Positions 13,395 through 16,764 of a stretch of DNA of 64,000 bases are shown piece by piece. The notes beneath the pieces were generated by a model. The model made no database searches and was not told the origin of the DNA. It saw only the letters and a list, made by a program, of their open reading frames with translations. A program made the position numbers and the translations under genes. This DNA is from Chryseobacterium sp. FH2 (GTDB lineage: Bacteria > Bacteroidota > Bacteroidia > Flavobacteriales > Weeksellaceae), in contig NZ_LFNE01000001.1 in NCBI RefSeq assembly GCF_001045455.1, positions 310,001 to 374,000 on the forward strand, read 5' to 3'. Each line of letters starts with the position of its first letter. Position 1 is the stretch's first letter.

Positions 13395-14138
13395 ATGGAT
13401 TTCCCTTTTACATTTCATATTTGTGGTAAAACTGTTCTTGCACATCCTATTTTTGAAACATTGGGGATGTTTATTGGGATGCGGTATTATTTTTATTTAA
13501 AGCGAAAATCTACGGAAAAACTTTCGTTCAACACTTCTGCAGCCGTTTTAATTGGAGCGACAGCTGGCGCATTAATTGGTTCAAAATTAGTAGGGAACTT
13601 AGAAAATCCTTACAAAATTTTCGAACATTTTGATTTAAAAACATTTTGGTCAAATAACACAATTGTTGGTGGATTAGCGTTTGGATTGGCTGGAGTGGAA
13701 GTAGCAAAAAAAATTGTCAAACATAAAGAAAGTACAGGAGATTTGATAGTTTTTCCATTGATGCTGGCGATTATTATCGGTAGAATCGGCTGTTTTCTTA
13801 CAGGAATTTACGAAGAAACATATGGTTTGCCTACCAATTCTATTTTTGGAATGCATCTTGGAGATCAATATTTGAGGCATCCTGTTGCATTATACGAAAT
13901 TGCTTTTTTGATCCTGCTTTGGATTGGGTTAAAGATTATTCAAAAGAAACAAAATTATCCATCAGGCTTTGTTTTTCAGGTGTTTATGGTGAGTTACTTC
14001 ACGTTCAGGTTTTTTCTGGATTTTATAAAACCGAGAGTGGAAATTTTGGGCAATTTGGGAACGATCCAGATAGTGTGCATTTGTGTAATTATTTATTACA
14101 TTTATAAAATCAAAAATACGTTATCCTTACAATCATAA
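13395..14138 (+). CDS. Divergent prolipoprotein diacylglyceryl transferase (Lgt)-family membrane protein
   Basis: This 247-residue polytopic membrane protein has the Lgt layout: N-terminal FPFTFHICG, a GRIGCFLTG motif, RHPVALYE, and FRFFLDFIKP near the end. Lgt moves diacylglycerol from phosphatidylglycerol onto lipoprotein cysteines. Compared with Lgt as I know it, the HGG motif reads TIVGGLAFG and GRxGN reads GRIGC, so two conserved polar residues appear replaced. It is also shorter than typical Lgt. The next genes encode a small membrane protein and a radical SAM enzyme, which suggests a specialised lipid or lipoprotein role rather than general Lgt activity. Confidence 0.8.
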   Translation: MDFPFTFHICGKTVLAHPIFETLGMFIGMRYYFYLKRKSTEKLSFNTSAAVLIGATAGALIGSKLVGNLENPYKIFEHFDLKTFWSNNTIVGGLAFGLAGVEVAKKIVKHKESTGDLIVFPLMLAIIIGRIGCFLTGIYEETYGLPTNSIFGMHLGDQYLRHPVALYEIAFLILLWIGLKIIQKKQNYPSGFVFQVFMVSYFTFRFFLDFIKPRVEILGNLGTIQIVCICVIIYYIYKIKNTLSLQS

Positions 14139-14150
14139 AATATTCGAATC

Positions 14151-14387
14151 ATGGAACTTTTGACACTTTTAGAAGTCGGTGACCTTGGGGGTTTGGTTTT
14201 AATGATCATTCTGATTATGCTCTTTGGAGCTTTATTCATATCTGCTATCGTTACGCTTTTCATAAAACTGATTTATGAATTGAAAGGCGGTAGAAAATTT
14301 TCTAAAAAACAGTTTATTCAGACGATGGTTATCTGTTTGTTAATCTGTGGTTTGATTAGTGGATATATTTGTGGAGGGGGAATTTAA
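14151..14387 (+). CDS. Small two-helix membrane protein
   Basis: This 78-residue protein has two hydrophobic helices (about 11-40 and 56-75) separated by a basic loop around YELKGGRKFSKKQ. No family is recognised. It lies 12 bases after the Lgt-like gene and 9 before the radical SAM gene, so it is very likely part of the same transcript and may act with them at the inner membrane. Confidence 0.75.
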   Translation: MELLTLLEVGDLGGLVLMIILIMLFGALFISAIVTLFIKLIYELKGGRKFSKKQFIQTMVICLLICGLISGYICGGGI

Positions 14388-14396
14388 AATAAAACT

Positions 14397-15800
14397 ATGC
14401 CGGTAAGAAATTATACTTATTACGATTATACGATCAGTCTTTGTCCTGAATGCCTGAAAAGGGTAGGAGCAAAGATTATCATAGAAGATGAAACCGTTTT
14501 TATGACAAAAAGATGCCCGGATCATGGTTTTTTTAAGACTAAAATTGCTTCAGATGTTCATTATTATAAAAACATCAGAAACTACAATAAAGCATCAGAA
14601 ATGCCTTTATATTTTGGAACCGATGTAGAATATGGCTGTCCTTATGATTGCGGTTTATGCGTTGATCATGAGCAGCATAGCTGTCTTTCGATTGTAGAAG
14701 TTACGGATCGTTGTAATTTGACCTGCCCGACCTGTTATGCAATGTCTTCTCCCCATTATGGAAGTCACAGAAGTCTCGAGGAAATCGAAGCTATGTTTGA
14801 TGTTATTGTTAAAAATGAAGGCGAACCTGATGTGGTGCAAATCAGTGGTGGTGAGCCGACGATCCATCCGGAATTTTTCAAAATCATGGATATTGCGAAA
14901 TCAAAACCAATTAAACATTTAATGTTGAATACCAATGGGGTACGAATTGCAAATGATCCCTGTTTTGCGGAAAAACTGGCAACGTATGCCCCGGAATTTG
15001 AAATTTACCTTCAGTTTGATTCTTTTAACCCTGACGTTTTAGAAGATTTTAGGGGAAAAGATCTAACGGATGTCAGAATGAAAGCTTTGGAGAAATTAAA
15101 TGCTTTAAATCTTTCAACAACTTTGGTTGTTGTTCTTCAGCAAGGGAAAAATACTGATGAAATCGGGAAGATTATTGACTTTGCTTTAAAACAAAAATGT
15201 GTTCGTGGAATTACTTTTCAACCTGTGGAAATTGCGGGAAGAAACAGAGAGGATTCTTCTCATCAAAAAATTACGTTAACGGAAGTGAGGCAGGAAATTT
15301 TAAACCAGTTTCCGCTTCTGAATTCTGACGATATTATTCCTGTTCCGTGTAATCCTGATGCGCTGGCAATGGGATATATTTTGAAATTGGAAGGTGAAGT
15401 TATTCCTTTAACACGTTATATCAATCCTGCGGATTTGCTGAATAACGAAACAAGAAACACAATTGTTTATGAGCAGGATACGGGATTGCAGATGCAGCTT
15501 CTGGATATTTTCAGTACAGGAATTTCTGTTGATAAAGTACAGCCGAAGGTAAATCAGCTATTATGTTGTCTTCCGGAAGTTTCTGCCCCAAATCTGGATT
15601 ATGACAATCTTTTCAGGATCATTATTATGAATTTTATGGATGCTCATGATTTTGATGTTCGGGCTGTCAAGAAATCTTGTGTTCATATCGTCAATAAAGA
15701 TTTAAAACTAATTCCTTTTGAAACAATGAATCTTTTTTATCGTGATGATAAAAGTAAATATTTGGAAGAATTGAGAAAGGAGGATAAAATTTTGTTCTAA
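14397..15800 (+). CDS. Radical SAM protein of the MJ0619/Tes (tetraether lipid synthase-like) type
   Basis: The 467-residue enzyme carries the radical SAM cluster motif CNLTCPTC (CxxxCxxC) and the SAM-binding segment ISGGEPT. Before the core are extra cysteine groups: LCPECL and RCPDHGFF (rubredoxin-like site), then GCPYDCGLCVDHEQHSC (auxiliary Fe-S site). The C-terminal part adds LLCCLPE and KKSC. This cysteine layout is that of Methanocaldococcus MJ0619, first assigned as a pterin methylase and later as the tetraether lipid synthase Tes, and of related bacterial enzymes. The tight operon with an Lgt-like protein supports a membrane-lipid or lipoprotein substrate. The exact reaction is unknown; subfamily placement is from memory of motifs. 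Confidence 0.82.
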   Translation: MPVRNYTYYDYTISLCPECLKRVGAKIIIEDETVFMTKRCPDHGFFKTKIASDVHYYKNIRNYNKASEMPLYFGTDVEYGCPYDCGLCVDHEQHSCLSIVEVTDRCNLTCPTCYAMSSPHYGSHRSLEEIEAMFDVIVKNEGEPDVVQISGGEPTIHPEFFKIMDIAKSKPIKHLMLNTNGVRIANDPCFAEKLATYAPEFEIYLQFDSFNPDVLEDFRGKDLTDVRMKALEKLNALNLSTTLVVVLQQGKNTDEIGKIIDFALKQKCVRGITFQPVEIAGRNREDSSHQKITLTEVRQEILNQFPLLNSDDIIPVPCNPDALAMGYILKLEGEVIPLTRYINPADLLNNETRNTIVYEQDTGLQMQLLDIFSTGISVDKVQPKVNQLLCCLPEVSAPNLDYDNLFRIIIMNFMDAHDFDVRAVKKSCVHIVNKDLKLIPFETMNLFYRDDKSKYLEELRKEDKILF

Positions 15801-15928: not shown

Positions 15929-15960
15929 CAAAAAAGGCGTAAAAACTTACGCTTTTTTGT
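15929..15960. terminator. Bidirectional terminator between the radical SAM gene and surE
   Basis: CAAAAAAGGCGTAA pairs with TTACGCTTTTTTG across a 4-base loop, with A and T runs on both sides. It separates two convergent units. Confidence 0.85.
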
Positions 15961-15967
15961 TTTAATT

Positions 15968-16738
15968 TTATTCAAAATTCATTACTTCCTCCAGCGTTTT
16001 CATATATTCATATGCCGTCAAATCAAACTTTACAGGAACGATTGAAATATATCCGTTTGCCAAAGCTGTTTCATCCGCATCTTCAGATTCATCCATATTG
16101 TTGAAATATCCTGTTAGCCAGTAATATTTTTTACCATGCGGATTTACTCTTTCATCAAAACTTTCTTCCCATTTTGCTTTAGCCTGTTTACAAACTTTTA
16201 TGCCTTTAATATCTTCTTTAGGAAGCTTAGGTATATTTACATTTAATACAATTCCTTTTGGCATTGGATTTTCCAAGGTTCTTCTGACAATATTTTGAAT
16301 ATATTCTTTAGCTTGGGTAAAATCTGCCTCCCAGCTGAAATCCAACAATGAAAACCCGATTGCCGGAAGGCTTTCTACACCAGCTTCTACGGCTGCAGAC
16401 ATTGTTCCGGAATAAATTACATTAATCGAAGAGTTTGCTCCGTGATTGATCCCTGAAACAACGATATCCGGTCTTCTTGTTAAGATTTTATCGAGTGCCA
16501 TTTTTACACAGTCAACAGGGGTTCCGCTACAGGAAAAATCCAATTGCGGACCATCGAGCTGTACTTCTTCATAGCTTAAGGTTGAGTTAATAGTGATAGC
16601 GTGGCCTTTGCCACTTTGTGGAGAGTTTGGTGCTACGACAACTACTTCTCCGATTTCGTTCATAAAGCTGACAAGATTTCTGATACCAGGTGCTGTAATT
16701 CCGTCGTCATTAGTTACCAGAATAAGTGGTCTTTCCAT
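15968..16738 (-). CDS. surE: 5'/3'-nucleotidase SurE
   Basis: From the ATG at 16738 the protein has about 256 residues and begins MERPLILVTNDDG, giving the metal-binding DD pair. NSPQSGKGHAIT and SGINHGAN follow, all SurE signatures. SurE dephosphorylates 5' and 3' nucleoside monophosphates and short polyphosphates. An upstream in-frame ATG at 16759 would add seven residues, but a minus-strand -7 element at 16757-16764 overlaps it. The downstream start is therefore preferred, with a leader of about 12 bases. Confidence 0.95.
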   Translation of the reverse strand: MERPLILVTNDDGITAPGIRNLVSFMNEIGEVVVVAPNSPQSGKGHAITINSTLSYEEVQLDGPQLDFSCSGTPVDCVKMALDKILTRRPDIVVSGINHGANSSINVIYSGTMSAAVEAGVESLPAIGFSLLDFSWEADFTQAKEYIQNIVRRTLENPMPKGIVLNVNIPKLPKEDIKGIKVCKQAKAKWEESFDERVNPHGKKYYWLTGYFNNMDESEDADETALANGYISIVPVKFDLTAYEYMKTLEEVMNFE

Positions 16739-16756
16739 ATTAAAATTTAATTTTAA

Positions 16757-16764
16757 CAAAAATA
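16757..16764 (-). promoter_or_regulatory. Putative -7 promoter element (TATTTTTG) for surE
   Basis: Read on the minus strand this is TATTTTTG, matching TAnnTTTG. It overlaps the longer possible start of surE and so helps fix the shorter start at 16738. Confidence 0.5.

Follow-up and report, generated by a model that had tools for sequence, protein, structure and literature searches.

A conserved Bacteroidota gene set of an Lgt paralogue, a small membrane protein with a near-terminal cysteine and a Tes/TrsS-related radical SAM protein

We analyzed a 64,000-nucleotide stretch of the Chryseobacterium sp. FH2 genome (contig NZ_LFNE01000001.1; hereafter the window), which carries at positions 13,395–15,800 of the + strand three adjacent genes for an Lgt paralogue (Lgt2), a small membrane protein (SMP) and a radical S-adenosylmethionine (SAM) protein related to Tes/MJ0619 and TrsS (rSAM). 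This three-gene set, already recognized in a preliminary description made from the sequence of the window, recurs across Bacteroidota, and most of its small membrane proteins keep one cysteine close to the C-terminus in a characteristic setting. We give about even chances to a reading in which Lgt2 lipidates this cysteine and rSAM acts on either that lipid or the protein carrying it. A search of open-licence PMC text, by title and the start of the abstract, returned no description of a Lgt-SMP-rSAM gene set, and the module appears to be undescribed.

The three open reading frames (ORFs) are separated by gaps of 12 and 9 bases: Lgt2 (247 aa, 13,395–14,138, assigned from the ORF list, Pfam, alignment and a structure model), SMP (78 aa, two predicted helices, 14,151–14,387) and rSAM (467 aa, 14,397–15,800). 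Their linkage was evaluated in two surveys. A scan of genome contigs covered the best 80 of at least 580 rSAM relatives, i.e., those closest to the window, all from Bacteroidota by title and including members of Chryseobacterium, Elizabethkingia, Epilithonimonas, Sphingobacterium, Apibacter, Chitinophaga, Niabella, Flavobacterium, Aquimarina, and Lewinella. At 78 of these 80 loci, a Lgt homologue lay ≤1.8 kb upstream of rSAM, and at one of the two others (L101) the sequence starts 309 bases ahead of rSAM. The second survey, which partly overlaps earlier genome samples, comprised 22 loci above the PF23545 cut-off in 247 genomes of the phylum; 20 of them had a Lgt homologue beside or close to rSAM (18 within the 3-kb locus, and G446 and G477 ~1 kb downstream of rSAM), the exceptions being G377 and G402, the latter with a rSAM that is Tes by score. 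The preliminary description had named conservation of the Lgt–rSAM pair across Bacteroidota as a check on its proposal, and the pair is indeed conserved; the linkage is far above chance adjacency in a ~4 Mb genome. The rSAM gene itself is patchily distributed, with matches at E ≤ 1e-30 in 11/60 genomes of a family sample and 18/295 of a class sample.

At the 80 named loci, the small hydrophobic protein is encoded either between Lgt and rSAM or directly after rSAM. No SMP was scored between the two enzymes at 41 of 78 loci, a count that includes one locus (L061) which does have one, and the Lgt2 ORF overlaps the rSAM start at 32 of these 41. A rule based on the cysteine near the end found an SMP at 76 of the 80 loci. 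When adjacent small hydrophobic ORFs were picked blind to cysteine, 85/91 carried a cysteine near the C-terminus after a hydrophobic stretch, compared to 9/37 small hydrophobic ORFs elsewhere in the same loci, five of which resemble further SMPs (Fisher test, 7e-15, overstated because related loci were treated as independent). The surroundings of the cysteine were described from 93 SMPs, drawn from 98 ORFs with a cysteine in the last 22 residues and a preceding hydrophobic stretch (a selection circular for the cysteine itself), one of which, the L076 ORF, is probably spurious. Aligned on the cysteine, position −4 is [GS] in 91/93 and position +1 is [GST] in 89/93, while position −1 is Ile or Val in 60/93. 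The tail after the cysteine measures 1–16 residues, and in 22/93 SMPs it has exactly three, a CaaX-like length. A typical SMP thus ends with a loop rich in lysine and arginine (K/R), a helix, and the cysteine, with on average 3.4 K/R before the last helix and 0.13 in the tail, so that under the positive-inside rule the cysteine would face the periplasm.

In the window, this residue is C74 (codon 14,370–14,372, + strand), within the C-terminal pseudo-lipobox LISGYI-C-GGGI. One alignment (A5) pairs C66 of the Chryseobacterium SMP with the terminal cysteine of Flavobacterium-type SMPs; we prefer C74, because the C66 place is non-Cys in several Chryseobacterium SMPs (L053, L065, and L070) whereas C74 is kept. 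The SMP of the window reached the cut-off of no curated Pfam or NCBIfam family, its relatives had no match in Pfam (six scanned) or in NCBIfam (another scan of six), and within its own genome it matched only itself, i.e., no paralogue was found. Chryseobacterium SMPs are under purifying selection, with non-synonymous values (pN) of 0.04–0.20 against synonymous values (pS) of 0.54–0.90 in 7/7 pairs. Identity among SMPs ranges over 30–91% where BLAST matches at all, compared to 63–95% for rSAM (alignment A1), a difference that would be expected if SMP is a substrate. Two or three SMP copies occur at 13 of the 80 loci, a 14th pair (L076) having been discounted as spurious. The preliminary description had listed SMP without assigning it a role; we take the conserved terminal cysteine as a sign that SMP serves as the substrate.

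Lgt2 is a divergent member of the Lgt family. It scored 78.8 bits against Pfam LGT (gathering score 24.9) and fell below two NCBIfam Lgt equivalog cut-offs (40.4 vs 334 bits and 35.8 vs 118.9 bits). For its structure model (mean pLDDT 88.8), E. coli Lgt 5AZB was the sole PDB match at E ≤ 0.001 (Foldseek, E 1.2e-7). On a different contig, the same genome encodes another Lgt with a higher score (178.6 bits, vs 78.3 for Lgt2), and across 24 genomes searched with PF01790, a further Lgt match was present in 23/23 with a module-type Lgt; the remaining genome, G402, has a single Lgt and carries a Tes-type rSAM instead. From pairwise alignment and motifs, the counterparts of E. coli R143, E202, Y235, and R239 are R130, E168, Y201, and R205 of Lgt2, with E243 replaced by D209, Tyr26 by His, His103 by V91, and Asn146 by C133 (codon 13,791–13,793, + strand, placed by the alignment of module-type Lgts). 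In 29 aligned module-type Lgts, which include one without rSAM nearby (L043), the R143, E202, Y235, and R239 counterparts are retained in all 29 and the E243 position holds Glu (17) or Asp (12). The Asn146 position is Cys in 29/29, the His103 position is V, M, L, or T and never His, and the Tyr26 position is His in 26/29. In passages of Mao et al. 2016 (PMC4728403), R143, E202, Y235, and R239 are described as surrounding the diacylglyceryl moiety, and the HGGL motif of Lgt is proposed to bind the lipobox peptide. With the diacylglyceryl contacts kept and His103 gone, the donor pocket of Lgt2 looks retained and the proposed acceptor site altered.

How much weight the replaced residues can bear is limited. 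Of the five residues required for E. coli Lgt function (Y26, H103, R143, N146, and R239), Lgt2 retains only R143 and R239, a test that is not strict since H103 and N146 vary among other Lgts. Seven main Lgts of other Bacteroidota (L183–L189) likewise have Tyr for His103 and Cys for Asn146, and lack Y235 too. His103 and Asn146 are therefore not universal marks of Lgt, in line with passages of PMC13251419, which report exceptions to the conservation of H103 and a Cys in place of N146 in distant Lgts. The preliminary description was thus right that two residues conserved in true Lgt are replaced in Lgt2, but since main Lgts share these changes, we rejected the idea that the losses by themselves prove a dead or new Lgt.

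For rSAM, Pfam returned Radical_SAM (1.5e-25) and an HMPTM zinc ribbon (3.9e-20), and the cysteine motifs named in the preliminary description are all present: a rubredoxin-like metal site, C16-x2-C19-x20-C40-x2-H43 (14,442–14,525, + strand, as for all rSAM positions), an N-terminal auxiliary cluster motif, C81-x3-C85-x2-C88 with H91/H94 (14,637–14,678), within GCPYDCGLC (residues 80–88), and a radical SAM cluster motif, C106-x3-C110-x2-C113 (14,712–14,735), within CNLTCPTC (residues 106–113). The three patterns (CX2CX20CX2H and twice CX3CX2C) are invariant in alignments A1 and A3, and the first has the spacing of the Tes site C9X2C12X20C33X2H36 given in passages of PMC9433317. Among solved structures, Tes 7TOL is nearest to rSAM in sequence (1.3e-61), and the folds closest to the rSAM model are 7TOM (VIA Z 31.7, root-mean-square deviation 3.5, 416 residues) and 7TOL (Z 31.6), with the next family at 16.8; the confidence of this model is moderate (mean pLDDT 70.5, with residues 371–380 and 387–396 below 50). 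Kinship with Tes by sequence and fold is thereby upheld, but membership of rSAM in the Tes group itself, whose cysteine layout the preliminary description had pointed out, is not. The Tes model NF045702 gave 272.5 bits against a cut-off of 450, rSAM falls outside the Tes branch of a tree containing two Tes rows, and C-terminal Cys and Tyr residues of Tes are replaced, so that score, tree, and residues all disagree with membership. The best NCBIfam model was TrsS NF045646, which aligned over nearly the full length with 320.2 bits against a cut-off of 490, and TrsS membership was rejected as well.

The C-terminal part of rSAM has cysteines of its own. C318 (in VPCN; 15,348–15,350), the C390–C391 pair (15,564–15,569), and C428 (15,678–15,680) are invariant in 31/31 Bacteroidota sequences (A3); in Tes 7TOL, the first is Ser and the pair is non-Cys, while C428 aligns with the second cysteine of the Tes CC pair. 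With Tes residue numbers set by matching C9 of PMC9433317 to residue 29 of the structure chain, Tes C438, Y459, and C470 align with I410, I431, and E442 of rSAM, and Met439 pairs with the invariant M411. We infer that rSAM may hold a third cluster with ligands other than those of Tes, and its reaction would then perhaps be unlike Tes coupling, in which, according to passages of PMC9433317, a substrate carbon is bonded to cluster sulfur before carbon–carbon coupling. Weighing against a different reaction, Tes is reported in the same source to retain activity in its Y459 and M439 variants.

The gene set persists in distant lineages of the phylum, where identity to the rSAM of the window drops to 55%, 38%, and 36% (L131, L132, and L133, respectively). 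The order at L131 and L165 is Lgt, rSAM, SMP, with two SMPs at L165 ending VGPG[SA]C. L132 (L132:4486-8088) and L133 (L133:3435-6941) have five genes, namely rSAM, an ICMT-family methyltransferase, DUF4395, the Lgt paralogue, and SMP, and their SMPs end in a near-classic lipobox, LLFGAC-M or LIFGSC-L. Eukaryotic members of the ICMT family act on C-terminal lipidated cysteines. Outside Bacteroidota, three actinomycete records of a plasmid collection have Lgt beside a rSAM ~27% identical to that of the window: plasmids of M. avium and M. branderi, which encode Lgt, two small proteins ending [AG]xC-TGLNP or VGVC-TGLNP, and rSAM, and a Nonomuraea record with a small protein, Lgt, and rSAM. These actinomycete-type rSAMs keep CC and PFC at the C-terminus and lack the N-auxiliary cysteines. 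One genome of the window's own phylum (L163 in G424) carries an actinomycete-type module, with a rSAM sharing 64% identity with the M. avium protein, perhaps as a result of inter-phylum transfer. Plasmid searches with rSAM and with a Tes-type protein gave 10 and 9 records, largely the same ones. A M. vanbaalenii plasmid (L196) and four haloarchaeal plasmids (L198, L199, L202, and L204) encode a Tes/TrsS-like rSAM directly before a gene with a methyltransferase domain; the stretches opened contain no annotated Lgt. The Tes-type query came from the phylum sample (L162:6864-8321, genome G402); it scores above the Tes cut-off (493.8 bits against 450), lacks a neighboring Lgt, and matched nothing in viral contigs.

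Phylogenies of the two enzymes agree in their deep structure. In the rSAM tree (37 rows, long branches flagged), the rSAM of the window falls within a 26-row Bacteroidota-type group (support 91/86), one member of which (L161) has no Lgt beside it. The two Tes rows (L162 and pieces of 7TOL) pair separately (100/99) with haloarchaeal rSAMs beside them, and actinomycete-type module proteins with L163 form a third group (100/100). The Lgt tree (48 rows) combined 22 of the 29 aligned module-type Lgts with 26 of the 27 other rows, all of them main Lgts from the window's phylum; the omitted 27th row, L191, is the module Lgt of L132. There, module-type Lgts of Bacteroidota and Actinomycetota, together with an unlinked copy from G134, form one branch apart from main Lgts (99/97). 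The order of deep splits (actinomycete type; L132 and L133; the rest) agrees between the two trees, which fits long co-inheritance of Lgt2 and rSAM.

The good conservation of the enzymes, the rapid change of SMP around a single fixed site of modification type, its repeated copies, and an Lgt branch largely confined to this setting point to SMP as the acceptor of an Lgt-like transfer. In the mechanism we favor, SMP would be an inner-membrane protein whose K/R-rich loop faces the cytosol and whose last helix reaches the periplasmic face, bringing the terminal cysteine (C74 in the window) to the place at which an Lgt-type active site operates. Lgt2 would transfer a diacylglyceryl-type lipid to its thiol, presumably as a thioether, and rSAM, on the cytosolic side, would generate a 5'-deoxyadenosyl radical and modify a hydrophobic partner, which could be the donor lipid, if rSAM acts ahead of the transfer, or lipidated SMP, if it acts later. 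The ICMT-family methyltransferase added in the two deep lineages L132 and L133 speaks for this scheme. A more specific version, in which Lgt2 adds diacylglyceryl to the SMP cysteine and rSAM welds a tail of the added lipid to an inner-leaflet lipid (or forms a C–S link), is in our view quite unlikely. If true, a tiny protein would be stapled through the whole bilayer by a membrane-spanning anchor, a C-terminal, radical-modified counterpart of bacterial lipoproteins; formally, it would be similar to eukaryotic CaaX proteins, given the SMPs with three residues after the cysteine and the ICMT-family genes.

Several observations weigh against lipidation of SMP by Lgt2. The classic lipobox core is [LIVMFWSTAG]2-[LIVMFYSTAGCQ]-[AGS]-C, which fits only 11/93 SMPs, the window SMP having Ile at −1. 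Some extra SMP copies lack the cysteine (L092, L102, and L113), and one locus (L112) has no recognizable SMP. The changes at Tyr26, His103, and Asn146 could mean a weak or different activity of Lgt2. Linkage also fails in places: a Lewinella locus (L120) has no upstream Lgt in the stretch read, in G377 the two genes lie on separate contigs, well away from the contig ends, with no SMP seen by either, and in G134 (L043/L130) neither rSAM nor SMP was recognized in the 15 kb fetched with its module-type Lgt.

Among the alternatives, we regard as unlikely, yet worth weighing, a synthesis of lipids without protein substrate, in which rSAM would couple or modify acyl tails as Tes and Mss do, Lgt2 would move or release the lipid, and SMP would be an accessory. 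The fit to Tes as closest solved structure, well ahead of the next family, the shared rubredoxin and N-auxiliary motifs, and the pairing of M411 with Met439 are what one would expect of such an enzyme, but the score below the Tes cut-off, the position outside the Tes branch, and the replacement of C438, Y459, and C470 are not, even though the activity of Y459 and M439 variants softens this last point; moreover, the SMP cysteine and the extra SMP copies would be left unexplained. Tetraether-type lipid synthesis in particular is possible but less supported. The broader proposal of the preliminary description, a modification of lipids or lipoproteins, remains the natural reading of a real and conserved pair, although membership in the Tes group is not supported.

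Alternatively, SMP could be a small subunit or anchor that brings rSAM, a soluble protein, to the membrane or Lgt2, its terminal cysteine being structural or redox-active, which is also unlikely and perhaps a little more so. At most loci a small hydrophobic protein is indeed encoded next to the enzymes, either overlapping or separated by a short gap; a subunit should, however, show a conserved interface, while it is mainly the near-end motif that is kept across lineages, two or three tandem copies would be unusual, and the cysteine appears to lie on the periplasmic side, away from the rSAM clusters. We consider least probable, and very unlikely, a TrsS-like thiol, metal, or cofactor system, with the Lgt fold recruited for another hydrophobic donor and rSAM maturing a small membrane redox protein. 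TrsS rather than Tes does give the best NCBIfam score (320 vs 272 bits), and relatives stand beside methyltransferases and DUF4395, one record also having CcdA and a disulfide oxidoreductase. The TrsS cut-off is nonetheless missed (320 vs 490), the five methyltransferase-linked plasmid loci have no annotated Lgt, and Lgt2 keeps the residues of the diacylglyceryl pocket.

If lipidation of SMP by Lgt2 holds, the module would constitute a second bacterial protein-lipidation route beside Lgt-LspA-Lnt, linked to radical chemistry and directed at the C-termini of very small membrane proteins. A role would also follow for "second" Lgt homologues with Cys for Asn146, and for a rSAM branch so far labeled only by its likeness to Tes and TrsS.

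Downstream of the module, a terminator-like hairpin (15,931–15,958, + strand) of 12 pairs followed by a T run lies between rSAM and a convergent ORF (15,968–16,759, − strand), one of three such sites in the whole stretch compared to 1.6 expected. A promoter scan of the stretch gave seven sites vs 11.5 expected.

Compared to known systems, rSAM shares with Tes (GDGT-MAS, MJ0619; PDB 7TOL/7TOM; NF045702) the domain order, rubredoxin spacing, N-auxiliary and radical SAM motifs, and fold, but differs from it through its own invariant C318, C390, and C391 and its nearly constant proximity to a Lgt paralogue and SMP. Mss, a Tes-like bacterial enzyme reported in passages of PMC13274423 to couple fatty acyl tails, can be likened to rSAM by description only. 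TrsS (NF045646) is the top-scoring model, near full-length, yet the rSAM of the window has a Lgt partner and no methyltransferase partner; in PMC13188914, TrsS occurs only as a table line with no function given. In Bacteroidota, the DybA/DybH hybrid of a lipoprotein and a ribosomally synthesized and post-translationally modified peptide (preprint, PMC12636315) likewise combines, on one small peptide, modification by an enzyme with a proposed lipidation of Cys by Lgt. In contrast to the module, the lipobox in passages of that preprint is N-terminal and classic, the route is the general lipoprotein pathway, and the modifying enzyme is an MNIO iron enzyme; neither a dedicated Lgt paralogue nor a radical SAM enzyme is mentioned there. 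Lgt2 has the same fold and pocket residues as Lgt (PDB 5AZB), and departs from it by the loss of His103, the change of Asn146 to Cys, a separate branch, and its status as a second copy. A further possible parallel to Lgt2 is MSMEG_5408, the second Lgt homologue of Mycobacterium smegmatis, which according to passages of PMC13251419 carries Y26H and N146C and is presumed to have low Lgt activity: by description, this is the signature of a module-type Lgt.

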